A stretch of DNA of 32,806 nucleotides from Candidatus Bathyarchaeota archaeon A05DMB-2 (GTDB lineage Archaea; Thermoproteota; Bathyarchaeia; Bathyarchaeales; Bathycorpusculaceae), in the NCBI GenBank assembly GCA_018475625.1, contig JAAKEZ010000017.1, forward strand, positions 1-32,806, written 5' to 3'. The notes below the pieces were generated by a model. It was given only the letters and a program-made list of their open reading frames with translations. It was not told the origin of the DNA and did not search any database. The position numbers and the translations under genes were made by a program. Positions 1,329 through 23,620 of the stretch are shown here, piece after piece (position 1 is the stretch's first letter; each line of letters begins with the position of its first letter).

Positions 1329-1330
1329 GA

Positions 1331-1990: not shown

Positions 1991-2005
1991 GACGAAAGGA
2001 CAATA

Positions 2006-3136: not shown

Positions 3137-3830
3137 CTATTGCTATTTTTAATTCTTCAATAAACCACCGTTTAGCATAACTTAAATCGTTGGCTCTAAC
3201 TTTATATGCATCTAAGTTATCTCCGATTACAACTGGCGCCATAAGCAAACAATAGAGTTTCGGCCATGCCAAACGGATCTTGCTTAAACACTCTTTAACA
3301 TACTTAATTAGCTCAAAAATATCGCGCAAAGAAGTATCTAAAACTTCAGTGTAACCAATTTCCTCGTCCAGAAATTTATTTATTTCATCGATACACATAG
3401 AAAAAGTCCATGGTTGCCTAAACCTATTTAATTTCTGCAATAAGTTTTCATCCTGAAGCCAGTCACGCATCGCATTATGGTGCTGAAGAACCCCCATGAA
3501 AACTAAAAGTCTTTCTTCCTTGCTTATTCCCACTTTCTCTAGGAGCCTCCAGCTTATTATTGCGGAAGGCAATTCATGATACATAAAAGTTGGTTTTTCT
3601 TTCCCTATGTTTTGCTTCCGTTGATATTGGTCGGCACCTTTACCAATATCATGGGTCAAAGCTGCCACCCTAGCCAAAAATTTGAAACGATGGAGGTCTA
3701 TGTTAAGACCAGAGGCTTTGAAACGTCTACAAGATATGTTCGCATTTTGCTGGATAAACTGTTGCGCAAAATTCAAGGTATTTTTTAAGTGATCAAAAAG
3801 TAACTGATCGTTATAGGCGTACGGTTTCAT
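3129..3830 (-). CDS. cas3'': Cas3'' HD nuclease
   Basis: A 233-residue HD-domain protein. The metal-binding HD pair is in ALTHDIGKG (about residues 58-66), with further histidines in YHELPSAI (about 84-91) and LQHHNAMRDW (about 115-124). This is the layout of stand-alone Cas3'' nucleases, which cut target DNA single strands while the separate Cas3' helicase unwinds. The ATG shares its first base with the cas3' stop (TAATG). Splitting HD and helicase into two genes is normal for type I-A and is not damage. Confidence 0.9.
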   Translation of the reverse strand: MKPYAYNDQLLFDHLKNTLNFAQQFIQQNANISCRRFKASGLNIDLHRFKFLARVAALTHDIGKGADQYQRKQNIGKEKPTFMYHELPSAIISWRLLEKVGISKEERLLVFMGVLQHHNAMRDWLQDENLLQKLNRFRQPWTFSMCIDEINKFLDEEIGYTEVLDTSLRDIFELIKYVKECLSKIRLAWPKLYCLLMAPVVIGDNLDAYKVRANDLSYAKRWFIEELKIAIGD

Positions 3831-5341
3831 TATGCTCCACCAAAGGTGTCTGATTCATTAAGCCCGATATTCTCTAGATATGTTTGACGATCGATTACAA
3901 TACCGCTATACCCATTTTTGAGGAAATAAATTGAAAGTGGCTCTTTTCTTGGTAAACTTTGCAGCTCTACAATCACTCTACCACTGACCAGCTTTCTAGT
4001 TTTGGCAAGAATGTCGCGTGCCTCAGCTTCATTCACAGGAATTGCCCAATTTGGGTCTATTTTATTTTCAATGAAAGCACTGATGATTCCTGAAGATTCA
4101 GTAAATCCCTCAAAATATTCAAAGGCGGCTTTTGCGTCGGGTAGACCTAATAATGGCATGTGATCAAGCAAACTCAACGATCTTGAGAGGGGGGAAATTT
4201 TTGTGGGAGGGGGCAGTTGATCGTAGACCTTTTTTATTAAACTCCTGCATTCGAAATAATCCAAATTAGAGTCTTCGATAAAATTCCAAGTGGCCTCTGT
4301 GGCTACTTTATCATATGGTGCACAGGTTTTAGGATTAACTACTAAGACTTCTCCTGTTATTTCACTTCTTGCAACTCTTCCTGCACGTTGTACTAGTCGA
4401 TCAGCAGGACATATTTCAGTTATCATAACATCGAAGTTGGTATCTATTCCCGCTTCGATGACTTGCGTTGCAATAACTAAAATCTCTTTTTCGTTTTTAA
4501 TTTTCTTTAAAAATTGCTCCCGCTTTACTTGAGGCAGCCCGCCATGAAATAAAACAGTATTGGTATCATTAATTTTTCTATAATACTCAATTGCTCTTTG
4601 TTTTGTATTAGCAACTATTGCCACTCGTTGATTTCTAAAATGACGAGCTAAGTCTACCGGATCTTGCAGTGATTTTTTGATGAGCCTCTTTCTTTTTTGT
4701 AATTCGTCATCAAATTTAAGATCCTTTCCTTTTTCATAAGTATATTCACGAAACTCGATACCTGATTCAATTAGTTCTTTTTTCACGAATTGTTTAAGGC
4801 TATCGGGCATAGTTGCGGTCATTATTATAATAACAACTCCAGCTAAAGCAAGAGAGCGCATGGCCGCTGTGACAGCATTAAGTGATTTGTATTCAGCATC
4901 CAAAGAGCCTAAGCCAGAAAACAGATGAAATTCGTCAAATACTATTATGGAAGTATAAATCATTGCTCTCGGAAACTCAAAATGGGCAGTATCATATTGG
5001 AATGCTTTCCAAAGTTCATGTGCAGGTAACTTGAAAAAATTGAGAAGAAATGTTTCAAGAGTAGTTATAACGCAATGTTTAGCAAAGAAAGGCGATCCAG
5101 GTTGCAACATATATTGCATTGCTAAATGTTTTTGCATGCATACGGGCATGTGGTCCTTAATTCTTGTGTACAAGTCATCTATTATGCTCCGCATAGGCAG
5201 TACATGAATAACTCTGGAAAAGTAGGGATTGCCCTCTATAGCTAACTCTGAGAGAGCTAAAGTAACCATGGATTTCCCGTAATTTGTTGGAAGATCCAGT
5301 AATATCACGCCGTTCTTGCTGTTGCTAAATAGTTCATCCAC
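3830..5341 (-). CDS. cas3': Cas3' superfamily 2 helicase
   Basis: A DExH helicase of at least 503 residues. Visible motifs are Walker A as LPTNYGKS (about residues 17-24), motif II as VFDEFHLF, motif III as MTATMP, motif IV region VAIVANTKQRA, motif V as VIATQVIEAGID, and motif VI as LVQRAGRVARS. DEFH in motif II and Asn in Walker A (PTNYGK rather than PTGxGK) are seen in Cas3 families. It unwinds target DNA for Cas3''. The first usable start is GTG 5341, but the frame stays open upstream to near the cas5 stop and would add helicase-like residues (see findings). The true start may therefore be earlier. Confidence 0.92.
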   Translation of the reverse strand: MDELFSNSKNGVILLDLPTNYGKSMVTLALSELAIEGNPYFSRVIHVLPMRSIIDDLYTRIKDHMPVCMQKHLAMQYMLQPGSPFFAKHCVITTLETFLLNFFKLPAHELWKAFQYDTAHFEFPRAMIYTSIIVFDEFHLFSGLGSLDAEYKSLNAVTAAMRSLALAGVVIIIMTATMPDSLKQFVKKELIESGIEFREYTYEKGKDLKFDDELQKRKRLIKKSLQDPVDLARHFRNQRVAIVANTKQRAIEYYRKINDTNTVLFHGGLPQVKREQFLKKIKNEKEILVIATQVIEAGIDTNFDVMITEICPADRLVQRAGRVARSEITGEVLVVNPKTCAPYDKVATEATWNFIEDSNLDYFECRSLIKKVYDQLPPPTKISPLSRSLSLLDHMPLLGLPDAKAAFEYFEGFTESSGIISAFIENKIDPNWAIPVNEAEARDILAKTRKLVSGRVIVELQSLPRKEPLSIYFLKNGYSGIVIDRQTYLENIGLNESDTFGGA

Positions 5342-5418
5342 AGACTTTAACGCTTCACAAATGAACCATCGCTCGTGCCAAGAATTCGCGTTGCATATAT
5401 AACGATATTTATCTGCTA

Positions 5419-6246
5419 TCAGACAACAAGCACCTCTTCATGCTTGAACCTATATGCAATGCCTCCTTTGAGGCAAGCACTGATTTTTCCTGAACGGATA
5501 GGCGTTTTACTTCCAGGTATTAGGAACTCCTCGAAGTCAGGAGTATCTCCTCTGGTCCAACCGCCCTTCCAAAATCGTTCTGAGTAATAAGACCCCTCAA
5601 TAGAATGTTGATCCACATATTTTAAAGGAAAGTAAAGGCGCGTTTCAATGCGATTATCTTTTAGCGGTTTAGCATCCATAGGCTCAGATTTTTCAATAGA
5701 TACTATCGACTCTTTGCTTCCTAATCTATCTATACTGCAAGCAGCTATGAGAATTTCTCTTTCCCAGTTATTACCTATTAGCTCCTCAAGTATCTTATCA
5801 TATAGAAGGTAACAGATTACTATAGCGCCACTTGGCACACTTATTTTGCCTACGCGAATGGCCCCGCTTCTATACTCTGGCAAGTATCGTCGTATTCCTC
5901 TTCCATCATTTTGAAATTGATGAAAATGAAGAGTGACATACTTGCTGATGTCTTCGTATGCAAATCCGATCGTTCCTTCTTTATAATACGCAGAAGCGCC
6001 CGCTACAGCTTTTGCTAAAACTAATGAAGGACTTGAGAACTTTCCATTAACTGCCAATGTTTCGCCTTTTATTTCCATACCGTTGAGTTTCAGTACACCT
6101 CTTCTCGCGAGTTCAGCACATAGTGCTCCTATGAGGGTTGTAGGAGGAAAAATGTAGAGTGATGTCTGCAGTTTACTTGTAGACGGCGATCTACACCAGA
6201 AACCCCAGTGAAGTGTTGCCTCAACTCTCAGCCCAAACATACGCAC
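5419..6246 (-). CDS. cas5: Cas5 (type I-A), crRNA 5'-handle-binding subunit
   Basis: A 275-residue RAMP protein. The N-terminal strand LRVEATLHWGFWCRSP followed by LYIFPPTTLIGALCAEL (about residues 30-47) is the Cas5 signature: a beta strand, then 'PP.t.l.Gal'. Cas5 caps the 5' end of the crRNA in Cascade, next to the Cas7 backbone. It follows cas7 with one spacer base. The GTG at 6246 or the ATG two codons on could be the start. It ends 77 bases before the annotated GTG of cas3', the only gap of more than a base or so between neighbouring genes in this operon. Confidence 0.87.
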   Translation of the reverse strand: MRMFGLRVEATLHWGFWCRSPSTSKLQTSLYIFPPTTLIGALCAELARRGVLKLNGMEIKGETLAVNGKFSSPSLVLAKAVAGASAYYKEGTIGFAYEDISKYVTLHFHQFQNDGRGIRRYLPEYRSGAIRVGKISVPSGAIVICYLLYDKILEELIGNNWEREILIAACSIDRLGSKESIVSIEKSEPMDAKPLKDNRIETRLYFPLKYVDQHSIEGSYYSERFWKGGWTRGDTPDFEEFLIPGSKTPIRSGKISACLKGGIAYRFKHEEVLVV

Positions 6247-6247
6247 T

Positions 6248-7279
6248 CTAGCCTTGGGGCTGCTTTAGTTCTTCTACAGATTTTTCCACAAGCTGTTCTA
6301 TTACTTTCTCTATAGTTTCACAAAGAGTGATTTCGGTTCCTTCACTTGCTTTCTCTTTGTCAAAAGCAAAAAGCGCTACATCTACATTTTTTAAGCCCAA
6401 TTTCTCAAAACAAGTGACTAGATCTTTCTTTCTATTCACTGTATTACGAACATATCCTTTTCCATTTCCAGGGCTAACTACAAATCGAATATCCTTAGAA
6501 TAAGAAGCAACTGCCGACAGAAGTTCCATATTGGGTAGAAACCTTGAGCGCTTTGCACCAAAAGGCATACTAGAATAGAACTTCAGGAGGGCTGAAAGAG
6601 CCGCCTTAACTCTTTCAGGTTTGCTTTTTTCAAGTTCTTTTTCTTTTGATTCTTCAATAGTACCAAAACCTGTAGAAGGCGTACCTATTCTTGAAGTGTC
6701 TAAGTTAAGAGAGAAAGTGTAAATTGCACTGCCAACTTCGACATTATACGGTATCTGTACTTCAGGTTTTGACGGAGCAAATCTGACATGGAATTGACTT
6801 TCCAGAGCTGCGGATTCCTTATCCCATAAAGTGGGTGTAGCATAGCCTACTTGGAAACATGAAGTCCTTTTTATTGGAGACCCCTTTTTACCAGCGTAGA
6901 GAAAGCCTCCTACATCAGCAATAAAATCTTTTAAAAGAATATCGATCTCGGCTCGTCTAATGTCATTTTCGTCATTGGCTGGTTGTAACCCCTCGTTCTC
7001 CAATAGGCCTTCGTCGGCAAACTTGAGAAACTCATGCCGTCTAGAGTATAGACCTAATGGAAGACATCGCGCATTAGCCTCTTCCACTAATAGCTCTTGA
7101 TAAGTGTGCGCTAATGACTCTCCCGAAATTACTGGCACAAACCTTATAGTATAACTACTGTTTTGATCAAGCATAACTATAGGTGCGGTTCTATGTCTAG
7201 ATAGGTTGCCAACAGTTTCAACGCCACTTAAACTTTCAAGATTAAAGATAGTTCGCACAGCAATACTAATATAACCCAC
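6248..7279 (-). CDS. cas7: Cas7 (Csa2), Cascade backbone subunit
   Basis: A 343-residue RAMP protein of Csa2/DevR type. It opens with YISIAVRTIFNLESLSGVETVGN, a form typical of Cas7 in type I-A and I-B. It continues with the core segment FVPVISGESLAHTYQ, where the Gly/Ser-rich turn is the RAMP RNA-binding loop. Then come CLPLGLYSRRHEFLKFAD and SCFQVGYATPTLW. Several copies wrap the crRNA guide. The GTG start shares one base with the csa5 stop (TAGTG), giving tight coupling. The C-terminal part has many charged residues. The small- and large-subunit genes lie on either side in the expected order. Confidence 0.9.
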   Translation of the reverse strand: MGYISIAVRTIFNLESLSGVETVGNLSRHRTAPIVMLDQNSSYTIRFVPVISGESLAHTYQELLVEEANARCLPLGLYSRRHEFLKFADEGLLENEGLQPANDENDIRRAEIDILLKDFIADVGGFLYAGKKGSPIKRTSCFQVGYATPTLWDKESAALESQFHVRFAPSKPEVQIPYNVEVGSAIYTFSLNLDTSRIGTPSTGFGTIEESKEKELEKSKPERVKAALSALLKFYSSMPFGAKRSRFLPNMELLSAVASYSKDIRFVVSPGNGKGYVRNTVNRKKDLVTCFEKLGLKNVDVALFAFDKEKASEGTEITLCETIEKVIEQLVEKSVEELKQPQG

Positions 7280-7671
7280 TATTTGCCCCCTCCACTTGAT
7301 CTAGCCACTACACTGGAAATTAAGCCCGCAGCATATGCAGCGGTATTCCTTGATACTCTAATATCCTCTGCTGATTCTACCAAAAATCTTTCATAATGAG
7401 AAGGCTCAGGCAATCTGCCCCTTATGGTGAAGTGTTTAGACTCTTTTTCCCATTTACCCGTTATTCCAATTTCATAGTCACCAACTTTTATGGCTTGATC
7501 AGCTTTTGGATTTCGAATGATTACTTCCAAAGTTCTTCCTAGCTCATAAATTGCTTTATTGACAGCATCTATGGATATTGCGTTAGCCAGCCTATCAAGA
7601 AGGGTATAACTCCGGCTTGCAATGACTACAGTAGCCAAAGCGTTAGCTATTTCAGGGTGAATTATTGGCAT
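7279..7671 (-). CDS. csa5: Csa5/Cas11a small Cascade subunit
   Basis: A 130-residue protein, first gene of the interference operon, directly upstream of cas7, where type I-A loci carry csa5. It has a helical N-terminal half (about residues 5-50), a short beta segment with alternating polar residues (about 58-90), and a second helical part rich in Ala and Ser (about 97-125). It ends in a Gly-rich tail. Small subunits stabilise the R-loop in Cascade. Sequence conservation in this family is low, so the name depends partly on gene order. The ATG at 7671 is preceded by an AGG-like ribosome site (ATAGGTT). Confidence 0.72.
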   Translation of the reverse strand: MPIIHPEIANALATVVIASRSYTLLDRLANAISIDAVNKAIYELGRTLEVIIRNPKADQAIKVGDYEIGITGKWEKESKHFTIRGRLPEPSHYERFLVESAEDIRVSRNTAAYAAGLISSVVARSSGGGK

Positions 7672-7739
7672 AACCTATTGTATTACTTTAACAAAATTTA
7701 AGTTTTACTGAAAGCACTACCACCAACTTTTGAAAAAAT

Positions 7740-7753
7740 CTTATTTTTATAGC
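7740..7753 (-). promoter_or_regulatory. Probable TATA box of the interference operon
   Basis: On the minus strand this reads GCTATAAAAATAAG, a strong archaeal TATA box. A start about 25 bases downstream (near 7718) would leave a 5' leader of about 45 bases before csa5. A weaker TTAAATTTT at 7694-7703, about 25-30 bases from the ATG, could serve a leaderless start instead. The rest of 7672-7932 is AT-rich and without a gene. Confidence 0.45.
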
Positions 7754-7932
7754 ATTAAATTAGTTTTCACCCAAAATAGAGTACCATATGGGTTGTGTAA
7801 CTACATATAGTTATTATTTTTGCATACAGCTCGATTTGCAACATAACAGGTTTATCTTACACTAGCTTTCTGTTTTAATTTTAGGTTTAATCTATTTATA
7901 TAGGGGGTATAAGTTTTGCCTCGCAAATGGCA

Positions 7933-8733
7933 TCACGCCTTTTTCTCAAGAAAACGAGTCAAGCCGAATCCTCCTGTTCGGTTTCCGCCCACATTAGCGT
8001 ATTCCGCATATTTCGCCAGCATAGCAGTCACCCTGTTCCATTCGCTTTCCTTATCCCGCATTTCATACGTGACCCAGCCCACAAACCCTGTTGTCTTCTT
8101 CTTCCGCATAACCGCCAATCGCGTATGCAACTCGTACTCGCATACCCCCACATTCTCACTCAACCATTCCTTGTAAGCCAAGTACTCCTCCTTACTGAAC
8201 CGCTTGCCGTCACTGAACAAGTTCCAAACCCGCATCAAACCCGAAAAAACCTTAACCGCATCCGGAAACATCCAGTGAAAACCACTGCCCAAACTCGCAA
8301 AATATGATGGCGTCTTAAACAAAAGCCTAAACCTGTCAACAGCTGCAGCTTCCTTCTCCAAATCCACATAACTCTTACAGTTAACGCTTAAACTGGCAAT
8401 ACGAAACACCGTGTCAAAAACCATCAAGCTGTTCTGTTTCTGAAAATAACTAAGAATAAACGCGCTGAGTTCATCCTTCAAAAACCTAAAACGCACAAAG
8501 CAAGGCGCCTGCGGATCCAACTCATAACCATTCTCAACACGACGCATACTCTTAAACCGCAAAGGCGTCACACTATAAGGCTTACGCACATCCAACTCAT
8601 GCAAAACGCCCGACACAACAGGATCCACCATACGCACCGCATGCAGCAACAAACCGCGAGCCACATAACCCGTAAAAAACGGCAAAACAACAGGCTTCTC
8701 CGCATACATCTCCAACCCAACTTCAACAGGCAA
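7933..8733 (-). CDS. cas6: Cas6 crRNA-processing endoribonuclease
   Basis: A 266-residue RAMP protein. The N-terminal strand and helix (VEVGLEMYAEKPVVLP, then GYVARGLLLHAV) and the C-terminal glycine-rich loop GGNRTGGFGLTRF (about residues 249-261) are the Cas6 hallmarks. Cas6 cuts the CRISPR transcript within the repeats to release crRNAs. The TTG at 8733 is chosen because an in-frame TGA lies three codons upstream; GTGGGAG at about 8743-8749 could be its ribosome site. It is on the same strand as the Cascade genes but separated from csa5 by 261 bases, so it probably has its own promoter in the shared gap with purC. Confidence 0.9.
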   Translation of the reverse strand: MPVEVGLEMYAEKPVVLPFFTGYVARGLLLHAVRMVDPVVSGVLHELDVRKPYSVTPLRFKSMRRVENGYELDPQAPCFVRFRFLKDELSAFILSYFQKQNSLMVFDTVFRIASLSVNCKSYVDLEKEAAAVDRFRLLFKTPSYFASLGSGFHWMFPDAVKVFSGLMRVWNLFSDGKRFSKEEYLAYKEWLSENVGVCEYELHTRLAVMRKKKTTGFVGWVTYEMRDKESEWNRVTAMLAKYAEYANVGGNRTGGFGLTRFLEKKA

Positions 8734-8853
8734 CCATGCTCAACTCCCACAGATGAGCTTCACTTTAGACGGAAACGCTCAAGATATAGCTGGAATAAGA
8801 AGTTAAAACTTTCCAAAAACGCCAAAGCAATTTTAGAGACAAACCGCTAGATA

Positions 8854-8866
8854 GCGATATAAGCTC
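8854..8866 (+). promoter_or_regulatory. Possible purC promoter (TATA box)
   Basis: AGCGATATAAGC resembles an archaeal TATA box. A start about 25 bases on, near 8887, gives a leader of about 30 bases that includes GAAGTGA (8905-8911), a passable Shine-Dalgarno for the purC ATG at 8919. The purC-cas6 gap is 185 bases and would also hold a minus-strand promoter for cas6; AGTTTTAACTT on the minus strand near 8800 is a candidate. Confidence 0.4.
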
Positions 8867-8918
8867 AAGAACAATATTCACATAAGCCATAGCGAACTGA
8901 GAATTGAAGTGACAGTCT

Positions 8919-9977
8919 ATGGGCAGCGTGAAAGACCTCGAAATAACCAAAAAACCCACACCAGACATCATGGGCGTCGGCAGATTCCACTTCTCCGACC
9001 GCTACTCTGTCTTCGACTGGGGCGAAATGCCCGACCACATCCCCGGCAAAGGCGCGGCGCTCTGCCTCATGGGCGCCTACTGCTTCGAAAAACTAGAGAA
9101 GACGGGAGTTCGAACCCACTACAGGGGCTTAGTGGACAAGACAGGGCGCCTCGTCACCTTCAAAGAAATCCGCCAACCCACAAGCACCATGGAAGTCAAC
9201 CTCGTCAACGTCTATAAACCCCAGATCCGCGCCGCGCAGGGAAAACTCGAGTACAACTACAGCATGTACACGCCAAAGCTCAAGAACTGCCTCATCCCAC
9301 TCGAAATAATCTACCGAAACGGCCTGCCAGAAGGCTCCTCAGTCTTCAAACGCCTCGAACAAGGAAAAATCACCCCGCAAGACCTCGGACTCGACCATGT
9401 CCCACAGCCCGGCGAACGCTTCAAAAAACCCATATTCGACGTCAGCACTAAACTGGAGGAAACCGACCGCTACGTCACCTGGGAAGAAGCCCAGAAAATC
9501 GCGGGCTTAACCAACATCGAACTAACTGCTGTGAAAGCGGTTCTTTCAAAAGTCAACGACACCATAACCGAAGTGGCATGCCACGCAAAACTGGAGAACG
9601 AGGACGGCAAAATCGAGTTAGCCTTCGACAACCAGAGAAAACTCATGGTCGTCGATGTCGTAGGCACCTTGGACGAGTGCCGTTTCACCTACGACGGCGT
9701 ACACGTAAGCAAGGAAATCGCCCGGCAATTCTACAAGAAAACACAATGGTACCGCGACGTGGAAGAAGCCAAAAAAACCGCGGAAGCTAAAGGCGTCAAA
9801 GACTGGCGTAGCATATGCAAATCGCAGCCCCCGAAACTCGACCCAGAGCTGAAGAACATAATCAGCGAGATGTACATGGCAGCCGCAAACGAGATGACCA
9901 ACCGCAAATTATTTGACGCGCCACCACTCGCAGAAGTGATTGGCAAATACCGGGATTATATGGGTGAAAAGCAATGA
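8919..9977 (+). CDS. purC: SAICAR synthetase (PurC)
   Basis: A 352-residue phosphoribosylaminoimidazole-succinocarboxamide synthase. It joins aspartate to CAIR with ATP, giving SAICAR in purine synthesis. The N-terminus GSVKDLE is the family's G-x-(V/T)-K-D nucleotide-binding start. FSDRYSVFDWGEMPD matches the conserved 'f.DR.S.FD.....ip.KG' block. LIPLEIIYRN is the 'vp.E.v.R.y..GS' region with GLPEGSS. The downstream ETDRYVTWEEAQ also fits. It is longer than bacterial PurC (about 240 residues), with extra helical C-terminal sequence. It overlaps purP by ATGA and forms an operon with the two purP genes. Confidence 0.92.
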   Translation: MGSVKDLEITKKPTPDIMGVGRFHFSDRYSVFDWGEMPDHIPGKGAALCLMGAYCFEKLEKTGVRTHYRGLVDKTGRLVTFKEIRQPTSTMEVNLVNVYKPQIRAAQGKLEYNYSMYTPKLKNCLIPLEIIYRNGLPEGSSVFKRLEQGKITPQDLGLDHVPQPGERFKKPIFDVSTKLEETDRYVTWEEAQKIAGLTNIELTAVKAVLSKVNDTITEVACHAKLENEDGKIELAFDNQRKLMVVDVVGTLDECRFTYDGVHVSKEIARQFYKKTQWYRDVEEAKKTAEAKGVKDWRSICKSQPPKLDPELKNIISEMYMAAANEMTNRKLFDAPPLAEVIGKYRDYMGEKQ

Positions 9978-11071
9978 TGAAAAACAAGATAAGAGAAATA
10001 ATTCGCGAATACGACCCTAAAAAAGTCCGCATAGGAGTTTTAGGCTCCCACTCAGCGCTGGAAATCGCTTCAGGCGCCAAACAGGAAGGCTTTGAAACCG
10101 TGGTTGTCTGCCAGAAGGGGAGGGAGAAAACCTACACGCGGTACTACGGTAACCTCTTCAACTGCATCGTGTTCCTAGACAAATTCGGCGACATAGTCAA
10201 AGAAGAAAACGTGCAGAAACTGGTCGACATGAACACCGTTTTTGTGCCCAACCGCTCCTTCAGTGTATACGCGGGATACGAGAACATCGAAGAAAAATTC
10301 GCCGTGCCACTCATGGGAAACCGGTACATGCTCAAAACCGAAGAGCGCGGCACACCGAGGAACCAGCAGTACCTGCTGGAAAAAGCGGGAATAAAGACGC
10401 CGAAAACCTTTAAGTCGCCCGCAGAAATCGACCGCCTCGCCATAGTTAAGGTCGCCGAGAAAACCCGCGCCATCGAACGCGCCTTCTTCTACGCCTCATC
10501 ACCAGAAGAATACGCGAAGAAAGCAGAGGAACGCGTCAAAAACGGAATAATCACCCGCGAAGCGCTCGCGCAGGCAGTCATCGAGGAATACGTCATCGGC
10601 GCCAAGTTCAACGCTAACTACTTCTGGTCTCCGCTAACTGGCGAGATAGACCTCTTAGGCTTCGACAAGCGCGTGCAAACAGACCTCGACGGCGTCTTAG
10701 ACCTGCCTGCCTCGGAGCAGTTGGAGCTTAAGATTCCGACGCAGAACATCGAGATTGGACACATGGGCGTGACCATGCGCGAGAGTCAGCTGGAAAAAAT
10801 TTTTGAGGCAGGCGAACGGTTCGTGGAGACATGCAAGAAAGAGTATCCGCCGGGGATGCTGGGGCTCTTCGCGTTGCAGGGTGCGGTTACAAAGGACTTG
10901 GAGTTTTACGTTTTTGACGTGAGTCCGCGAGTGCCAGGCTGCCCCTGCGTGGAACCAACCTCGCCTTACATGAAGTACAAGTACGGCATGGAAGTTGGTC
11001 CTGGAAGGCGTGTCGCCATGGAGATTAAGCGTGCCTTGAAAGAGGGCAGGCTTGCGGAGGTGGTAACATGA
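9974..11071 (+). CDS. purP: PurP, formate-dependent FAICAR synthetase (copy 1)
   Basis: A 365-residue ATP-grasp enzyme of the archaeal PurP family. These make FAICAR from AICAR, formate and ATP, replacing the folate-dependent PurH step. Visible are the N-terminal nucleotide-fold motif IGVLGSHSALEIASGAK (about residues 20-36), PLMGNRYMLK, IVKVAEKTRAIERAFF (ATP-grasp lysine region), IEEYVIGAKFNANYF, LGFDKRVQTDLDG, and VSPRVPGCP near the C-terminus. It starts at ATG 9974 within the purC stop and runs into purP copy 2 with another ATGA overlap. Its product is the next-but-one step after PurC in the pathway. Confidence 0.9.
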   Translation: MMKNKIREIIREYDPKKVRIGVLGSHSALEIASGAKQEGFETVVVCQKGREKTYTRYYGNLFNCIVFLDKFGDIVKEENVQKLVDMNTVFVPNRSFSVYAGYENIEEKFAVPLMGNRYMLKTEERGTPRNQQYLLEKAGIKTPKTFKSPAEIDRLAIVKVAEKTRAIERAFFYASSPEEYAKKAEERVKNGIITREALAQAVIEEYVIGAKFNANYFWSPLTGEIDLLGFDKRVQTDLDGVLDLPASEQLELKIPTQNIEIGHMGVTMRESQLEKIFEAGERFVETCKKEYPPGMLGLFALQGAVTKDLEFYVFDVSPRVPGCPCVEPTSPYMKYKYGMEVGPGRRVAMEIKRALKEGRLAEVVT

Positions 11072-12153
11072 TTACAAGCAGCGACATCGCCAAAATCCTC
11101 GGCAAGTACGACTTGAGCAAGCTTGCGATTGGCACGTTGGGTTCGCATTCGGCGCTGAACATTTTCAAGGGCGCCAAGGAAGAGGGGTTCCGCACGGTGT
11201 GCATCTGCAAGGAAAAAGACGCCATAATGTACCGCAAGTTCCCTCTTGTTGACGAGATGATAATAGTAAAGGACTTTACTGAACTGCTTAAAGAGGCGTT
11301 GCAGGAGAAACTGCGTCGGCTGAACGTGGTCTTGATTCCCCATGGTTCTTTTACCGCTTATCTAAGCACTGAGGAGTTGACCGACAGCCTTTATGTGCCT
11401 ATGTTTGGGAACCGGCAGCTTCTTCACTGGGAAGCCAACCGCAAGGAGCAGGAGGAATGGCTGCGCCAAGCAGGGCTGCGGCTGCCCGCCACATTCAAGA
11501 CGCCGGACGAAATCGATCGCTTGATAATCGCCAAGTTACCCGGCGCGAAAGGTGGCAGAGGCTACTTTTTGGCTAATTCGCCTGCGTCTTTCTATAAGAA
11601 GTTTAAGGCGATGGTTCGGCGTGGTCTCCTCCGAGAAGAGGATGTTGGCAGGATTCATTTGCAGGAGTACGCTTTGGGCGTGAACGTTTACCCCAGCTAC
11701 TTCAGCAGCATAATCAAGGACGACGTGGAGTTCTTGGCGGTGGACAGGCGTTACGAGTCCGCCGTGGACGCCATCGGCAAGATTCCAGCGAGTGAGCAGT
11801 TGGAAATCGACGTGACCCCAACCTACACTATCGTGGGCAACTTCCCCATAGTGCTCCGCGAATCCCTGCTGCCGGAACTCATGCGCATGGGCGACAGCGT
11901 CCACAAGAAAGCGCGAGAACTTGCCCCGCCCGGAATAATCGGTCCCTTTTGCTTGGAGACTGTGATTACGGATGACTTGAAGATTTACACGTTCGAGATT
12001 TCGGCGCGCATCGTGGCGGGAACAAACGTTGGCATTGGAACTTCGCCTTACGCTTACTTGAAGTACGGTGCTGGCATGTACATGGGCAGGCGCATAGCGC
12101 TTGAAATAAAGGAAGCGCGTGAACAGGGGCGCCTCGGAGAGGTTCTCGCGTAA
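11068..12153 (+). CDS. purP: PurP paralogue (copy 2)
   Basis: A 361-residue PurP-family ATP-grasp protein. It shares the plan of copy 1: IGTLGSHSALNIFKGAK, PMFGNRQLLHWEA, IAKLPGAKGGRGYF, LQEYALGVNVYPSYF, LAVDRRYESAVDA and FEISARIVAGTN. The two copies differ throughout, so this is an old duplication, not an assembly repeat. Many archaea carry two PurP paralogues and the role of the second is not always known. This copy has the more canonical glycine-rich ATP-grasp loop (GAKGGRGYF) where copy 1 has EKTRAIERAFF. Either could be the main FAICAR synthetase. The ATGA overlap with copy 1 shows co-translation. Confidence 0.85.
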   Translation: MITSSDIAKILGKYDLSKLAIGTLGSHSALNIFKGAKEEGFRTVCICKEKDAIMYRKFPLVDEMIIVKDFTELLKEALQEKLRRLNVVLIPHGSFTAYLSTEELTDSLYVPMFGNRQLLHWEANRKEQEEWLRQAGLRLPATFKTPDEIDRLIIAKLPGAKGGRGYFLANSPASFYKKFKAMVRRGLLREEDVGRIHLQEYALGVNVYPSYFSSIIKDDVEFLAVDRRYESAVDAIGKIPASEQLEIDVTPTYTIVGNFPIVLRESLLPELMRMGDSVHKKARELAPPGIIGPFCLETVITDDLKIYTFEISARIVAGTNVGIGTSPYAYLKYGAGMYMGRRIALEIKEAREQGRLGEVLA

Positions 12154-12226: not shown

Positions 12227-12445
12227 ATGCGCCTTTTCTTTCAGGGAGAAGGTTTGGCATCAAAAGAAGAACTCTACGGCTGGTTGTTCGTGACCACAAT
12301 TCCGTTATTGTGTGAGGAGAAAAAGCTTGAGCGCCAGCAGAAGATAGAAACTTGGCTGGACCTGTACCAGCTCACCAGAGAACTCGACATTGCCAAAAAC
12401 GGAAACGGAGCGAGCGCGAACTCGCCGATTGATTACGTGACTTAG
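12227..12445 (+). CDS. Small protein of unknown function
   Basis: A 72-residue open frame with an ATG at 12227 and an AAGGAT stretch just before it. It has a hydrophobic-aromatic middle (LYGWLFVTTIPLL, about residues 17-29), then an amphipathic charged helix (about 30-57) and a polar Asn/Gly/Ser tail. I recognise no family. It ends four bases inside the convergent kinase gene. Its codon use looks like its neighbours', which supports a real gene. A small soluble helical protein is the safest description. Confidence 0.5.
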   Translation: MRLFFQGEGLASKEELYGWLFVTTIPLLCEEKKLERQQKIETWLDLYQLTRELDIAKNGNGASANSPIDYVT

Positions 12446-13227
12446 CCGAAGCAAATCCGCTGCACGCGGTCAAAATTCTCACGTGTGCGCGCCTTTTTGT
12501 ACAGCCTTAGCGCCTCAATGAGTTCTGTGCGGTTTCTCTCACCAAGCACCTTGGATACGACTGTCCCGACGGCGCCAATGAATAGGTAGTGGCAAGCAGC
12601 CGCGACGTTTGCGGGTTTTCGGGCATCGCTGGCGGTTTCGAAATCAACAATCCAAGGCTTCCCAGTCATATCGACTATGAGGTGTTTTGGTGCTTTGCTG
12701 AGTTCGCCGTGGTCCAATCCCGCCTTATCCAGTCGCCAGCACTGCTCTAAAATGTCAGTTAAGACTTTGCGCATCTCTTCCCTTGCGGTGTGTGTCGCGA
12801 GCCACAAGGGCAGGGGGTCGCCGTCGATTAGCTGCATGAGGAGGAAGTTTTTGCTCGTGCTGATGAGTCTTGGTCCAACTGCTACAATGTTGGCTTTGGT
12901 GAGCATTTCGGCTTCGTGCTGCAGGCTCGGTCTGTCCGCGTCTACTCGGCGAATCTTTAAGGCAGCACGTTGCCCGTCCAGGTGCGCTGTCACGACAACG
13001 CCGACAAAGCCCTTGCCCAACACAGGGATGTCAAAAGCGCTGCTCCTTCCCGAGAACTCCACAGCTGAGACGCCAAGTACTCGAAGTTCTTCGAGGCGGT
13101 GCCGCAGCTCCGCTTCGCTTGCCCGGGGATAACAGAGTATGGATGCGTATGGTTCCGCGTTGAGGTTTTCGGTGGGCACTGTTACGGGTGTTTTCACTGT
13201 TCTTGTCCTTCTTTTTTCTGGCAACAA
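12442..13227 (-). CDS. Predicted Ser/Thr protein kinase, COG2112-like
   Basis: A 261-residue archaeal kinase-fold protein. Visible are the glycine loop VLGKGFVGVVV (about residues 69-79), the lysine strand AALKIRRVDADRP (Lys about 91), a Glu in LQHEAEML (about 104), and the catalytic segment LDHGELSKAPKHLIVD (about 171-186). PWIVDFETAS (about 191-200) is the DFG-equivalent metal site. This order matches the RIO-like COG2112 family known in archaea; its substrates are not established. The TTG start at 13227 lies about 20 bases from an AT-rich element shared with the divergent EF-2 gene, so the transcript may be nearly leaderless. Confidence 0.78.
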   Translation of the reverse strand: MLPEKRRTRTVKTPVTVPTENLNAEPYASILCYPRASEAELRHRLEELRVLGVSAVEFSGRSSAFDIPVLGKGFVGVVVTAHLDGQRAALKIRRVDADRPSLQHEAEMLTKANIVAVGPRLISTSKNFLLMQLIDGDPLPLWLATHTAREEMRKVLTDILEQCWRLDKAGLDHGELSKAPKHLIVDMTGKPWIVDFETASDARKPANVAAACHYLFIGAVGTVVSKVLGERNRTELIEALRLYKKARTRENFDRVQRICFG

Positions 13228-13301: not shown

Positions 13302-15458
13302 ATGCCGAGGTTCAGACAAGTTGCCGACATCCTGATGCTAATGGGCAGGAAGGAGCTTATCAGGAACATGGGGATAATCGCCCACATCGACCATGGAAAA
13401 ACCACTCTGACCGACTCGTTGCTTGCTGGGACTGGGTTGCTGTCGCCGAAGGTGGCGGGTTCCGCCCGTGTCTTGGACTATCTTGAGGAGGAGCAGAGGC
13501 GCGGCATCACCATGAAAACCGCCAACATCTCCCTGCTCTACCAAGCCGCCGAGGGCGCATTCATCATTAACTTGGTGGACACGCCTGGGCACGTGGACTT
13601 CACGGGCAAGGTCACCCGAGCCCTGCGCAGCATAGACGGCGCCGTCGTAGTTGTGGATGCGGTCGAGGAGATTATGGCTCAAACCGAAATCGTAATCCGC
13701 CAGGCTCTTGAAGAAAGAGTGCGTCCTGTGCTCTTCATCAACAAGGTAGATCGCCTCATCACCGAACTGAAGCTTAGCGCGGAGCAAATTGAAGCGAAAT
13801 TCAACCGCATAATCGGCAGCTTTAACGATTTAATCGAGATTTACGGCGAACTCCCATTCAAGAACGCGTGGAAAGTGAGCGCTGTAAGGGGTAGCGTGGC
13901 TTTCGGCTCGGCTCTGCACAGGTGGGGATTCACCTTAAACGAGACGAAGCAGAAGGGAGTGAAATTCAGCGATATAATGGGCGCTTATCGAAACGGCGAG
14001 GTTGAGGAACTGCCGAAGCTAATTCCGCTTCACACCGCGATACTCGACATGTCAGTTAAGAACATCCCAAGCCCCTTAGACGCTCAGCGGTATCGGGTGG
14101 AAAAAATCTGGAAGGGCGCTCTCTCCTCGGAAGCTGGGCAAGCCATGGTACGCTGCGACGACCGCGGACCAACGATAATGTGCGTGACACACGTTCAGGC
14201 GGATCCTGATGCTGGTGTAATCGTGACTGGGCGATTGTTCTCGGGTACCGTCAAAAATGGCGACCGCGTCTATCTCGTCAATGCGCAGGCGGAGCTGGTG
14301 GTTCAGCAGGTTGCGGTTTACATGGGCGCTTTCAGGGAGCCTGTTGACCATGTGGCGGCGGGCAACTTGGCTGCTTTGGCTGGGTTGGATGCGGCGAAGG
14401 CAGGCGAAACTGTGGTTGACGCAGAACACCGCGGGGGGATGGTGCCGTTTGAGCGCATCAGGTACGTGTCGGAGCCTGTGTTGACGGTGGCGGTGGAGCC
14501 CAAAAACCCCAAGGATTTGGAGCCTTTGTTACGCGCAATGGAGAAGCTGGCGACCGAAGACCCGAATTTGGCTGTCGAGGTGAATGCGGAGACGGGCGAG
14601 TACCTGTTGAGCGGGATGGGCGAGCTGCACCTCGAGACCGCCACAAAGCACCTGAAGGATTATCTCGGCGACATGGAAATCACGGCTTCGCTGCCGAGGG
14701 TTGTTTACAGAGAAAGCGTCACCCGAAAAGGCGCCGTTGCCACGGCTGCAAGCCCAAACAGACAGAACAGGTTCACGGTTCAGGTTGAACCGTTGGAGGA
14801 AGAGCTTGCGAAACTTATCGACCAAGACGGCTATGCGCTAAAGAGCGTCGGCGAGGTGCTCGCGGTGGATGAACAGAAGAACGCGTTGGTGGAATGCGCT
14901 GGGAAAACGGAGCAGCTTCGGAGCGTTCTGGATTCTGTAATCTCAGGCTTCACCTTCGCATGCAAGGCAGGACCCTTATGCGGGGAGCCTTTGAAAAGCG
15001 TCAAAATCAGCTTGGTCAAAGTCCAGCTCAGCGATGACGCGGAGCAGCGCAGCCCGGTTGAGATTATGCATGGTGTGGGCAAGGCGATTTTCGGCTCTTT
15101 CCTGACGGCTACGCCGGTGCTGCTTGAACCCGTCTACAAAAATGTCATTTCTGTTCCAACAGAATTGGCTGGAGAATGCTCCAGAATCGTCAGTAGCCGA
15201 CGGGGAAAAATCTCCGCCTTTGAGCAGAAGGGCATTTTGACCACGGTTACCAGCTTTATTCCAGTAGCTGAAACCTTCGGCTTAGCCCAAGAGCTGCGGT
15301 CAGCCACTTCTGGTCGCGCCTTTTGGCAGTCCACGTTTGACCATTGGGAAAAGATGCCCGCGAAGCTGGAAGCAAAAGTAATCATGGAAATCCGAAGAAG
15401 GAAGGGCTTGCCCGCGGCGGTTCCGAAGCCTGAAAGGTTCACGGAGGAAAACCAGTGA
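13302..15458 (+). CDS. Translation elongation factor aEF-2, diphthamide His replaced
   Basis: A 718-residue EF-2. The GTPase motifs are intact: AHIDHGKTTL (G1), RGITMKTA (G2), DTPGHVDF (G3) and NKVD (G4). Domain II and the domain III to V order follow archaeal EF-2, ending in IRRRKGLP. The N-terminus MPRFRQVADI aligns with the usual start, so ATG 13302 is secure. The domain IV loop reads DAEQRSPVEIMHG where archaeal and eukaryotic EF-2 have DA(I/V)HRGPAQ. Gln582 therefore replaces the His that is modified to diphthamide, and the Gly after Arg is Ser. This is either the sole EF-2 of a diphthamide-less lineage or an aEF-2 paralogue. It overlaps the glycosylase gene by four bases. Confidence 0.92.
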   Translation: MPRFRQVADILMLMGRKELIRNMGIIAHIDHGKTTLTDSLLAGTGLLSPKVAGSARVLDYLEEEQRRGITMKTANISLLYQAAEGAFIINLVDTPGHVDFTGKVTRALRSIDGAVVVVDAVEEIMAQTEIVIRQALEERVRPVLFINKVDRLITELKLSAEQIEAKFNRIIGSFNDLIEIYGELPFKNAWKVSAVRGSVAFGSALHRWGFTLNETKQKGVKFSDIMGAYRNGEVEELPKLIPLHTAILDMSVKNIPSPLDAQRYRVEKIWKGALSSEAGQAMVRCDDRGPTIMCVTHVQADPDAGVIVTGRLFSGTVKNGDRVYLVNAQAELVVQQVAVYMGAFREPVDHVAAGNLAALAGLDAAKAGETVVDAEHRGGMVPFERIRYVSEPVLTVAVEPKNPKDLEPLLRAMEKLATEDPNLAVEVNAETGEYLLSGMGELHLETATKHLKDYLGDMEITASLPRVVYRESVTRKGAVATAASPNRQNRFTVQVEPLEEELAKLIDQDGYALKSVGEVLAVDEQKNALVECAGKTEQLRSVLDSVISGFTFACKAGPLCGEPLKSVKISLVKVQLSDDAEQRSPVEIMHGVGKAIFGSFLTATPVLLEPVYKNVISVPTELAGECSRIVSSRRGKISAFEQKGILTTVTSFIPVAETFGLAQELRSATSGRAFWQSTFDHWEKMPAKLEAKVIMEIRRRKGLPAAVPKPERFTEENQ

Positions 15459-16318
15459 AGCTTGACGGCACACCATTCAACTTGGACGTTACGCTCTGTT
15501 GCGGTCAAGTGTTCAGGTGGGACAAGAAGGACAGCTGGTGGTACGGCGTCGTGGGAGACCGCGTCCTCAAGGTGCGGCAGACCGCCGCGGAGTTGGAGTT
15601 TGCAGGCGCCGACGAAAAACTGATTGTGCACTATTTCAGTTTGAACGATGACTTGCAGAAAATCGGCGCCGCAATCGGCAAAGACGAACACATCCGAAAG
15701 GCGCTAAAAGCGTTCTGGGGCTTGCGCATAATCAGGCAGGACCCATGGGAATGCCTCGTCTCGTATATCTGTGCCACGTACAAGAGCATCCCCACAATAA
15801 GGCACATGTTGTTGAGTCTTTCGAGCAAGTTCGGAGAGAAAACCGTGCTGGACGGCATGATGTTCTTTACGTTTCCCACGCCTGAAAAGCTGGCGGGCGC
15901 CGCGGAGAAAGACCTGTGGGCGTGCGGCTTGGGCTACCGCGCCCGCTACGTGCATGCGACTGCGAAGCGAATTTTCGAAAACAATTTCGAACTTGAACGC
16001 CTCAGGCAGTTGCCTTACGAGCAAGCCAAGAAGCAACTCTGCGGCTTCGCGGGCGTGGGTCCCAAAGTGGCTGATTGCGTCCTGCTGTTTTCGCTGGGGA
16101 AACTGGAGGCGTTTCCCGTGGATCGCTGGATCGCTCGCGTCATCTTGAACCATTACGTCCAGCAACTTCCGAGCAAGCTGGCACAGAAACTTTCAAAGCG
16201 AGAAGGGCTTAGCAACTCTGAGTACGCCCAGCTTAATGCGTTCGGCAGGGTATACTTCGGTGAGTACGCGGGTTACGCTCAAGAGTACTTGTACCACTAT
16301 GAGCGGATGAATGCCTAA
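15455..16318 (+). CDS. ogg: 8-oxoguanine DNA glycosylase/lyase, OGG1 type
   Basis: A 287-residue HhH-GPD base-excision repair enzyme. The N-terminal FNLDVTLCCGQVFRW is the OGG1 opening, with the G-Q-x-F-R-W motif. The helix-hairpin-helix is LCGFAGVGPKVADC with catalytic Lys204. AFPVDRWIARV carries Asp223, 19 residues later, the same spacing as in human OGG1 (Lys249, Asp268). It removes 8-oxoguanine and nicks the abasic site. The GTG start overlaps the EF-2 stop (GTGA), so the two are co-translated; no functional link is evident. Confidence 0.92.
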   Translation: MKLDGTPFNLDVTLCCGQVFRWDKKDSWWYGVVGDRVLKVRQTAAELEFAGADEKLIVHYFSLNDDLQKIGAAIGKDEHIRKALKAFWGLRIIRQDPWECLVSYICATYKSIPTIRHMLLSLSSKFGEKTVLDGMMFFTFPTPEKLAGAAEKDLWACGLGYRARYVHATAKRIFENNFELERLRQLPYEQAKKQLCGFAGVGPKVADCVLLFSLGKLEAFPVDRWIARVILNHYVQQLPSKLAQKLSKREGLSNSEYAQLNAFGRVYFGEYAGYAQEYLYHYERMNA

Positions 16319-20711: not shown

Positions 20712-21011
20712 TTAGCCGCCTGTAACCACAGGCATCAAAACCACCCGGTCGCCGTCTTTAAGCTTGGTTTTTATGCCATTCAACTGGTTAAGCAGCAAGC
20801 CGTTGACGGCTAAAATGTAAAAGGGTTTCAGGTCCAGTCCTTTGGGTTCGTAGATGGTTTTCTTGAAGGGTTCACCATGCTTCTCCGCAAGTAGCGTCAA
20901 CAAGTCGCTTACTAAAGCGTCGTTTTTGAGTTCGACGCTTTCGCCTTGTTCAGTGCCCAATGTTTGCTTGATGTAGCCCAAGTACTCGACAGTCACTTTC
21001 AAGCCGTGCAC
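20712..21011 (-). CDS. MoaD/ThiS-like ubiquitin-fold sulfur carrier
   Basis: A 99-residue beta-grasp protein ending in Gly-Gly (MPVVTGG), the terminus that is adenylated and thiolated in MoaD/ThiS/SAMP proteins. DGDRVVLMPVV is the last strand. It starts at GTG 21011 with AGGGGTG just upstream. A TATA box (GATTATATAAAG on the minus strand, 21048-21059) drives it divergently from the aldehyde oxidoreductase gene. MoaD supplies sulfur for the pterin dithiolene that holds tungsten or molybdenum, and AOR enzymes need that cofactor, so the pairing makes sense. A SAMP-type protein modifier or tRNA thiolation role remains possible. Confidence 0.82.
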   Translation of the reverse strand: MHGLKVTVEYLGYIKQTLGTEQGESVELKNDALVSDLLTLLAEKHGEPFKKTIYEPKGLDLKPFYILAVNGLLLNQLNGIKTKLKDGDRVVLMPVVTGG

Positions 21012-21047
21012 ACCCCTGCGAATGCCGAGTATTATACGTGTGAGAAA

Positions 21048-21059
21048 CTTTATATAATC
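21048..21059 (-). promoter_or_regulatory. TATA box of the MoaD-like gene
   Basis: On the minus strand GATTATATAAAG is a near-consensus archaeal TATA box. It places initiation near 21027, about 15 bases before the GTG start with its AGGGGTG ribosome site. Confidence 0.6.
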
Positions 21060-21177
21060 ATTTCCGAGTCAAAAATCTCTTTCACTCGTGCAAGCCGTCA
21101 TAGCTCTTAGTTTTTCGAGTTCCCAACGAATCGGTTGTGGTGTTTCCCCATCAAATGCGCCAGCAGAATCCATTAGG

Positions 21178-21188
21178 TTAATATACCT
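21178..21188 (+). promoter_or_regulatory. TATA box of the AOR operon
   Basis: TTAATATACCT lies about 35 bases before the AOR ATG. Initiation near 21208 would leave a leader of about ten bases with no Shine-Dalgarno, so translation is probably leaderless. Confidence 0.5.
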
Positions 21189-21217
21189 TACATACCGACT
21201 ACTTAAGCTAATCACAA

Positions 21218-23107
21218 ATGTCGGGGGAAACAAAAATATTCGCTTACGCGGGTAAAATTCTTCGTGTTGACCTCACAACAGGAAAAGTTTCTACTGAACC
21301 TTTAAGCGAGAAGATGGCTAAAGACTATGTTGGCGGCATAGGACTTGGCATCCGCTTATTAATGGACAACTCAAAACCAGGCACAGACCCATTCAGCCCA
21401 GACAACCCATTAATCTTTGCCACTGGTCCTCTCAGCGGCACTATGGGACCCACGGCTGGAAACGGCTACGCCGTGGTTTCCAAGTCGCCTGCAACTGGCG
21501 GAGTCGGCGAAGCCAAAGCACACGGCTTCTTCGGTCCAGACCTGAAAAGAGCAGGATACGACGCAGTAATCATCACAGGCAAGGCGGACAAGCTGTCATA
21601 CTTGTGGATTGACGATGACAAGGTTGAGTTGAGAACTGCGGAACAGCTCAGGGGAAAATCGCCGTACGAGACCGATATGGCAATACGTGAGGAACTAGGC
21701 GATTACTACATTCGCGTCTCAGCCATCGGTGAAGCAGGCGAGAAACTATGCCGCATTGCATGCATAATAAACGATGAATTCCGCGCCATCGGAAGAACCG
21801 GAATGGGCGCTGTCATGGGCTCCAAAAACCTCAAGGCAGTGGCTGTCCGAGGAACAAAAGACGTAAACGTCGCAAACCTAGACGGATTCAAAGAATTCGT
21901 AAAGATGATACATGAACGCATGAAAGGTCCTGCCACAAAGAAATACAAAACTCTGGGAACACCTGAAAACGTCTTGGTTTTAAACTCATTGTCAGCCTTG
22001 GCAACAAGGAACTTCACTAACGCTCAGTTTGAAGGCGCCGAAAAAGTAAGCGGTGAATACTTGAACGAGCACTACGTCAAAAAAATCGTGGGCTGCGCAA
22101 CTTGCGGCATGCGTTGCGACCACATCGCCGTAGTTCCAGAAGGACCCTATCAAGGCTCAACCAGCAGGTTAGAGTTCGAATGCTTATGGTCTATGGGTCC
22201 GCTATGTGGAGTTGACCGTCTTGACGCTATAATCGAAGCGATGCGGATCGTGAACGAGTACGGCATGGACGGCATATCTATCGGCGTAATCGTTGCTTTT
22301 GCCATGGATTGTTACGAACATGGCGTAATAACTAAGGAACAGACAGATGGCATAGACCTGCGATTCGGAAACGCTGAAGCACTCATCGCGCTTATCCACA
22401 AAATAGGTAAACGCGACGGCTGGCTCGGCAATACACTCGCTGAAGGTGTTGCAAGAGCTGCAGAGATAATAGGCGGAGACGCATACAAATACGCTTGCCA
22501 CATCAAAGGCTTAGAACTGCCAGGCTACGACTTGAGAACCCTGAAGACCGCAGCGCTAGGTTTCAGTGTTTCGTTCCGCGGTGCGTGTCACCTCAGGAAT
22601 GGCGCTTACTCGCCTGACGTGAAGGGTAAGGTGAACCGTTTTAAGATTGAGAAAGGACGCGGCAAGATGATAGCTGACGAGGGCAACGTGTACAACATCA
22701 TCGACTCGCTTATCGTGTGCAAGTTTTCCAGAGGCACATACTACGACGGCATCAAAGACCTATCGAACTATTACACTTTAGCCACCGGAATCCCGATTAC
22801 TCCAGAAGAATTAACAAAAAGCGGGGAAAGAATCGAGAACCTTGCACGACTGTTCAACATCCGCGAAGGCAAGGGAACAAGAAAATACGACTGTTTACCC
22901 TACAAAATAGAGAACTGCCCAGTACCCGATGAGGGACCAGCCAAAGGCGCGGTTGTAAACGAGGAAGAATTCCAAATCGGGCTTGACGACTACTACTCGG
23001 TGAGAGGCTGGAACGCAAACGGCGTCCCAACGGTTGAGAAGCTTAACGAGCTGGGTTTAGGCGATTTGGCGTACATAGTCCAAGCGGCAAATCAAGGAGG
23101 CGCATAA
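21218..23107 (+). CDS. aor: Aldehyde ferredoxin oxidoreductase, tungsten/molybdopterin type
   Basis: A 629-residue AOR-family enzyme. It oxidises aldehydes to acids with ferredoxin as electron acceptor. The N-terminal domain has YVGGIGLGIRLL and GPTAGNGYAVVSKSPATGG, the pterin-binding region. The [4Fe-4S] ligands are GCATCGMRC (Cys293, 296, 300) and Cys501 in SLIVCKF, spaced as in Pyrococcus AOR (Cys288, 291, 295, 494). RTGMGAVMGSKNLKAVAVRG is also characteristic. The exact aldehyde cannot be read from sequence. It is followed after three bases by a four-cluster ferredoxin gene with an AAGGAGG site just before the AOR stop, so the two form an operon. Confidence 0.93.
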   Translation: MSGETKIFAYAGKILRVDLTTGKVSTEPLSEKMAKDYVGGIGLGIRLLMDNSKPGTDPFSPDNPLIFATGPLSGTMGPTAGNGYAVVSKSPATGGVGEAKAHGFFGPDLKRAGYDAVIITGKADKLSYLWIDDDKVELRTAEQLRGKSPYETDMAIREELGDYYIRVSAIGEAGEKLCRIACIINDEFRAIGRTGMGAVMGSKNLKAVAVRGTKDVNVANLDGFKEFVKMIHERMKGPATKKYKTLGTPENVLVLNSLSALATRNFTNAQFEGAEKVSGEYLNEHYVKKIVGCATCGMRCDHIAVVPEGPYQGSTSRLEFECLWSMGPLCGVDRLDAIIEAMRIVNEYGMDGISIGVIVAFAMDCYEHGVITKEQTDGIDLRFGNAEALIALIHKIGKRDGWLGNTLAEGVARAAEIIGGDAYKYACHIKGLELPGYDLRTLKTAALGFSVSFRGACHLRNGAYSPDVKGKVNRFKIEKGRGKMIADEGNVYNIIDSLIVCKFSRGTYYDGIKDLSNYYTLATGIPITPEELTKSGERIENLARLFNIREGKGTRKYDCLPYKIENCPVPDEGPAKGAVVNEEEFQIGLDDYYSVRGWNANGVPTVEKLNELGLGDLAYIVQAANQGGA

Positions 23108-23110
23108 AAA

Positions 23111-23620
23111 ATGGTTCGTCCACAAGACAGAAAATTCGTCACAGCCGACCCTGAAAAATGCATAGGCTGCTTAGTCTGCGAGTACGCATGTTCAATGACT
23201 AACGAGAAGACCTTTAACCCAACCAAATCAAGAATACGAGCTTTACGTTTGGGTCCACTGACCAACCTGTCAGTAACATGCCGCCACTGTGAAGACCCCG
23301 CGTGCGTAGCTGCTTGTCCAAGAGAAGCGCTGTCTCAGGAAGAAAACACGGGCATAATCATGGTTGATGAAGAAGCATGCAACGGTTGTGCGTGGTGCAT
23401 TAGCGCATGCCAATTCGGCGCCATGATGATGCATCCCGAGAAGAAAGTAGTGTTCACCTGCAACAGCTGCAAAGACCAGCCTGATGGTCCACAATGCGTC
23501 AAATGGTGCCCTGAAGAAGCCTTGACGTTCGTCACCGCGCAGCAACTTGCTCAGAAATCACGCATAAGTGCCGTGAAGAACCTGTTCCAAGAAGCCAAAG
23601 AGAAGAAAGCTGCAAAGTAA
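23111..23620 (+). CDS. Four-cluster [4Fe-4S] electron-transfer subunit for AOR
   Basis: A 169-residue ferredoxin-like protein of the DmsB/HycB type. Cysteine groups are seen in order: CIGCLVCEYAC (about residues 17-27), CRHCEDPACVAACP (about 57-70), CNGCAWCISAC (about 90-100) and CNSCKDQPDGPQCVKWCP (about 117-134). This makes room for four clusters. Such proteins pass electrons between a pterin enzyme and ferredoxin or another carrier. Close spacing to the AOR gene makes it the likely partner subunit. A lysine-rich tail (about 155-169) follows. No signal peptide is seen, so the complex is cytoplasmic. Confidence 0.88.
   Translation: MVRPQDRKFVTADPEKCIGCLVCEYACSMTNEKTFNPTKSRIRALRLGPLTNLSVTCRHCEDPACVAACPREALSQEENTGIIMVDEEACNGCAWCISACQFGAMMMHPEKKVVFTCNSCKDQPDGPQCVKWCPEEALTFVTAQQLAQKSRISAVKNLFQEAKEKKAAK

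Follow-up and report, generated by a model that had tools for sequence, protein, structure and literature searches.

The gene under study encodes an elongation factor 2 (EF-2). It lies in a 32,806-nucleotide stretch of bathyarchaeal DNA, the whole of which is here called the window, and is flanked by a divergent RIO-like kinase gene and an 8-oxoguanine DNA glycosylase gene. The relevant features, with their basis in brackets, are:

8919..12153, plus strand: purine cluster of a SAICAR synthetase and two PurP-type ligases, a conserved part of the locus (profile matches)
12442..13227, minus strand: RIO-like kinase, upstream and divergent, a conserved neighbour (RIO1)
13302..15458, plus strand: EF-2 of type A, tip-degenerate, 718 aa, with all five EF-2 domains (Pfam, TIGR00490, AlphaFold2, Foldseek)
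13383..13406, plus strand: P-loop HIDHGKTT, intact (alignment)
13500..13514, plus strand: switch I RGITM, Thr70 intact (alignment)
14763..14765, plus strand: Gln488 codon in tip loop 1 (SPNRQN for SPNKHN), the yeast His583 position (alignment; contact role, PMC8674143)
15024..15065, plus strand: second tip loop of domain IV, reading QLSDDAEQRSPVEI in place of the canonical EF-2 sequence LHEDPVHRGPAQI (translation, alignment)
15030..15032, plus strand: Ser577 codon, the yeast His694 position, His in every intact EF-2 sampled (alignment; contact role, PMC8674143)
15045..15047, plus strand: Gln582 codon at the position of the diphthamide His, yeast His699 (alignments)
15455..16318, plus strand: OGG-type 8-oxoguanine DNA glycosylase, downstream of type A (OGG_N, HhH-GPD)

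By overall architecture the protein is an ordinary EF-2. It scores 753.8 bits against TIGR00490, above the cut-off of 738.45, and so falls within the full-length aEF-2 family. The Pfam domains GTP_EFTU, D2, EFG_III, EFG_IV and EFG_C are all present, as are GTPase motifs G1–G4, including the switch I Thr and the switch II His. An AlphaFold2 model has the normal EF-2 fold (mean pLDDT 85.6), and its best Foldseek match is the archaeal EF-2 5h7j (E 1.8e-82). The start of the OGG gene overlaps the EF-2 stop at 15455 (GTGA junction), with GGAGG upstream, and in the window's family almost every type A locus has the same order, EF-2 type A followed by OGG.

The tip of domain IV is where the protein departs from its relatives, reading LSDDAEQRSPVEIM where other archaeal EF-2s have LHEDPVHRGPAQIM. 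The initial annotation held that the diphthamide His is missing, and gapless alignments bear this out: Gln582 falls on the diphthamide His of Sulfolobus and Pyrococcus EF-2 (HMMER, sequences of solved structures), in the same register against about 140 archaeal EF-2s. The motif it gave as usual, DA(I/V)HRGPAQ, was in the right register, but the archaeal form here is HEDPVHRGPAQ. The tip loop contains no His, the nearest one (MHGV) aligning outside the loop, and no other loop residue aligns with the modified position. Carrying Gln582, the protein thus lacks the modifiable His that defines a diphthamide-bearing EF-2. A base-calling error at 15045–15047 can be dismissed because a relative, L011, with 92% protein identity reads SDDTEQRSPVE in this loop. 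Chance loss of the His is likewise excluded, since it is invariant in all the other groups sampled (26 other Bathyarchaeia, 23 other Thermoproteota, 35 intact type A and 55 type B copies). In yeast eEF2, the codon-anticodon duplex is contacted by diphthamide 699, His583, His694 and Asp696 (PMC8674143). When yeast His583 and His694 are mapped onto the archaeal SPNKHN and HEDPVH segments by conserved motifs, the four corresponding residues in the window protein are Gln488, Ser577, Asp579 and Gln582, of which only Asp579 (yeast Asp696) is kept. These alignments indicate that the loss is not confined to the modified His: of the four residues that contact the decoding site, three are gone.

Whether the gene is a paralogue or belongs to a diphthamide-free lineage had initially been left open, with a search for a second EF-2 and for dph1/dph2, dph5 and dph6 proposed to decide it. 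The genome carrying the window (110 contigs, 96.4% complete, 2.1% contamination) contains, on contig C3, a second EF-2 with DPVHRGPAQI, together with one Dph1/2, one Dph5 and six PF01902 (dph6-like) proteins. This second copy, of type B, scores 824.5 bits against TIGR00490 even though truncated, versus 753.8 for the window's type A, and both EF-2s also occur in the closest genome, G147. A genome with an HRGPAQ-bearing EF-2, Dph1/2, Dph5 and PF01902 proteins belongs to a diphthamide-competent archaeon of the Bathyarchaeia, and the window gene is an EF-2 paralogue within it. For it to be instead the sole EF-2 of a diphthamide-free organism, contigs C3, C43 and C44 would all have to be contaminants, despite the contamination estimate of 2.1% and the grouping of the type B copy with that of G147; nothing in the genome supports this vanishingly improbable reading, and we reject it.

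The two types were placed using 151 genomes of the class and 68 other Thermoproteota, with 194 EF-2 rows in the tree. Named relatives of the window EF-2 are almost all Candidatus Bathyarchaeota genomes, and the listed non-bathyarchaeal Thermoproteota have a single EF-2 each. With the tip columns left out of the alignment, the trees place type A, the window copy included, inside the vertical bathyarchaeal EF-2 lineage (the tree contained no Asgard sequences) and type B in one separate clade with support of 100 and a long stem. The types also differ in switch I, which reads YLEEEQKRGITIKTAN in type A and SWELEQKRQMTVFASN in type B, or SYILEKQRGVTIFASN in one of its subclades; these lineage-specific residues of type B surround a kept Thr, and every type B copy has HRGPAQ. 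Holding type B together with the order's type A gave p = 0.055 in an AU test, and type B may have arisen by an old duplication or by transfer.

Within the window's order, intact A was found with no B detected in 24 genomes, intact A together with B in 7, and degenerate A together with B in 39 (39 of the 46 genomes having both). B occurs with no A found in 9 genomes (G071, G098, G101, G102, G103, G104, G116, G117 and G131), and degenerate A with no B found in another 9, whose bins may be incomplete. All stages thus survive in living lineages, from intact A alone through intact A with B and degenerate A with B to B alone. Matches to Dph1/2 (PF01866) and Dph5 (TIGR00522) are present in every one of the 39 genomes carrying degenerate A and B. 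The degenerate copies form a near-clade with L019, which keeps HRGPAQ, at its base, a topology from which a single main loss event appears likely. The type A tips HRNPAQ (G126) and HHGPAQ (G146) resemble early stages of degeneration.

Gene order identifies which copy moved. The two genes stand head to head in the arrangement purC-purP-purP> <RIO-like <EF2B EF2A> OGG>, which, small differences among the purine genes aside, is found in G106, G108, G112, G125, G126, G127, G135, L019 and L036. In sister genera, type B sits between the RIO-like kinase and type A. The window and its family's degenerate members retain the old neighbours and differ only in having no EF2B at this site, which makes the window gene the copy that did not move. 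It is the resident, vertically inherited EF-2, descended from the order's original copy, and the idea that it is a newcomer paralogue is rejected by tree and synteny alike.

The loss of the tip is not accompanied by decay elsewhere. The initial annotation had argued as much from the intact GTPase motifs, and the rates agree: in the G000/G147 pair, dN/dS is 0.115 for type A (dS 0.354) and 0.025 for type B (dS 0.367), with 0.09–0.17 in other type A pairs. K33, T34, T70, D93, G96, H97, N147 and D150 are kept in all 54 degenerate A copies, and D30 of the P-loop in 52. On this dN/dS and these kept catalytic residues we reject decay; purifying selection still acts on the window EF-2, and its GTPase site is intact. 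The tips tell a different story. Among degenerate A copies, His is kept at the His583 position in 2 of 54 and at the His694 position in 6 of 54, versus about 100% in every other group. Mean identity across tip 2 is 0.20 in type A against 0.92 in type B, the loop being hypervariable and, in many relatives, shortened. Type A as a whole evolves faster than B (median ratio of tree distances 3.7 in 19 genomes). With intact A as the reference and the tips excluded, domains II, III and IV are accelerated 1.36-fold over domains I and V (95% CI 1.16–1.61), a modest effect measured with approximate domain bounds; with type B as the baseline for these 30S-facing domains, the interval is 1.04–1.66 and nearly reaches 1.

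We consider it about an even bet (probability roughly 0.5) that type B is the translocase and that type A has been kept as a 50S-directed GTPase for another job on the ribosome. Type B would carry out diphthamide-dependent translocation, while type A would still dock at the GTPase centre of the 50S subunit through domains I and V and hydrolyse GTP, but would no longer stabilise the codon-anticodon duplex. A 50S-directed role is favoured because the small-subunit-facing domains are relaxed more than the large-subunit-facing ones; in yeast, eEF2 remains attached to the large subunit via domains I and V (PMC8674143). The likeliest job for type A would be a large-subunit step within the repertoire of plain archaeal EF-2, for instance ejection of the anti-association factor aIF6 or some other control of free 50S subunits. 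Sulfolobus EF-2 without diphthamide releases aIF6 from the 50S subunit with GTP alone (PMC8024482). The outcome would resemble the function of eukaryotic Efl1, reached independently. More tentatively, in this one order of Bathyarchaeia the original EF-2, pushed out of translocation by B, might have become a dedicated large-subunit GTPase, either an independent archaeal counterpart of Efl1 or a 50S hibernation factor. Several observations run counter to the 50S-directed model: the 30S-facing domains are only modestly accelerated, the window protein still has the fourth contact residue, Asp579, and the 9 genomes with degenerate A but no detected B mean that B may not always back up A, unless those bins are incomplete. 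Since some B-bearing genomes lack A, its job must also be dispensable in some lineages.

Other roles for type A have to be weighed against this one. It could be a diphthamide-independent, condition-specific translocase isoform working alongside B, an option consistent with the retention of every domain and GTPase motif and with the genomes in which only degenerate A was detected. Recombinant Sulfolobus EF-2 without diphthamide keeps its ribosome-dependent GTPase activity (PMC8024482), and organisms lacking diphthamide still translate, at lower rates and with more frameshifting (PMC8674143). The hypervariable, often shortened loop is not a conserved alternative tip, however; three contact residues have also been lost together, and we regard the isoform as unlikely. 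A role in ribosome hibernation or 50S storage is suggested by M. acetivorans, whose EF-2 and PurH dimerise 50S subunits (PMC12605026), by the purC-purP-purP cluster that adjoins the type A locus across the family, and by the strongest constraint lying on the 50S-facing domains. Yet the active sites are empty in the M. acetivorans complex, whereas type A keeps its catalytic GTPase residues; the oppositely oriented RIO-like gene separates the purine genes from type A, and those genes were already there when B stood next to A. Hibernation is, on these grounds, clearly unlikely.

It is very unlikely that type A simply has no specific job and has been decaying slowly since B took over. Its faster evolution and its absence from the 9 genomes in which only B was found would fit such redundancy, but dN/dS remains at 0.09–0.17 in all pairs tested, reading frames are intact over dozens of genomes, catalytic residues persist in 54 of 54 copies, and the position next to OGG is conserved. 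The reading that we prefer remains that of a 50S-directed GTPase beside a type B translocase.

In earlier discussion, diphthamide-less EF-2 paralogues go along with dph loss. The present case uncouples the two: the loop has disappeared, the diphthamide pathway has not. According to a 2023 paper (PMC10307638), which cites Narrowe et al. 2018 (Genome Biol Evol), many archaea without dph encode a second EF-2 missing the diphthamide residues. The window gene resembles these in being one of two EF-2s and lacking the key residues, but their hosts have no dph genes and the present genome keeps them. As far as the description in PMC10307638 goes, retention of dph sets the window gene apart from the paralogues of Narrowe et al. 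2018. A His-bearing partner is present here, and tree and synteny both mark the loop-less copy as the original.

Efl1/Ria1 is the eukaryotic EF-2 paralogue for eIF6 release. The window gene is likewise an EF-2 paralogue with a proposed role as a large-subunit GTPase, but it groups with bathyarchaeal EF-2. Archaea reportedly lack an Efl1 orthologue (PMC8024482), and a 2015 survey recorded only one added archaeal translational GTPase, aSelBL (PMC4342817). Bacterial EF-G II is also a fast-evolving translocase duplicate under relaxed constraint, but it has lost RGITI and diverged in its GTPase domains while keeping domain IV (PMC3150367), the reverse of what is seen here. Compared with canonical archaeal EF-2 (TIGR00490), the window copy has the same five domains, GTPase motifs and fold and has lost decoding-site tip residues.

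Few proteins are as conserved as EF-2, which serves as a single-copy phylogenetic marker. Because the diphthamide carrier is not the vertically placed copy in these genomes, a marker-gene tree or an annotation can end up with the wrong one. The surviving series of stages also makes EF-2 roles apart from translocation testable.

Several other Bathyarchaeia show peculiarities in EF-2 or dph genes. No Dph1/2 match was found in any of the seven genomes of family f16 (G009, G014, G019 and G220–G223), nor Dph5 in G009, G014 and G019; the family is a candidate for diphthamide-free Bathyarchaeia, at a completeness of only 65–89%. The EF-2 of G014 (L135) keeps the His, reading VHEDPVHYGPGQ. In genus g20, type B was found in only 5 of 11 genomes and not in G022, G044, G086, G087, G099 and G219, four of these six having Dph genes. 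Type B pieces lie at contig ends in G133 and G149, and assembly breaks are a possible cause of the missing type B in this genus. One member, G086 (L198, L261, L278), is 95% complete in 20 contigs, and its only EF-2 found is a tip-degenerate A, with type B, Dph1/2 and Dph5 all undetected; it may be a diphthamide-free bathyarchaeon or reflect a gap in the bin. The EF-2s L140 (G051) and L142 (G027) carry an intein-like insert within the P-loop (DHGK|CVSGDTL...HN|TT), in frames of 1200–1332 aa. G047 has two intact type A genes (L063, L123), one very close to that of other f5 genomes, and the pair is either a duplicate or the product of a mixed bin.

Elsewhere in the window, type I-A-like cas genes occupy 1271–8733 (Cas4, Cas3 HD and helicase parts, Cas5a, Cas7/Csa2, Csa5 and Cas6), with a Cas2-like ORF nearby at 150–446; direct repeats were not found at 1–900 or 8700–8930. 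Beside the cas genes, at 481–1328, is a toxin-antitoxin-like pair (UPF0175 and DUF3368/PIN-like). An aldehyde ferredoxin oxidoreductase is encoded at 20712–23620; downstream of it comes a 4Fe-4S protein, and a ThiS/MoaD-like gene lies nearby.
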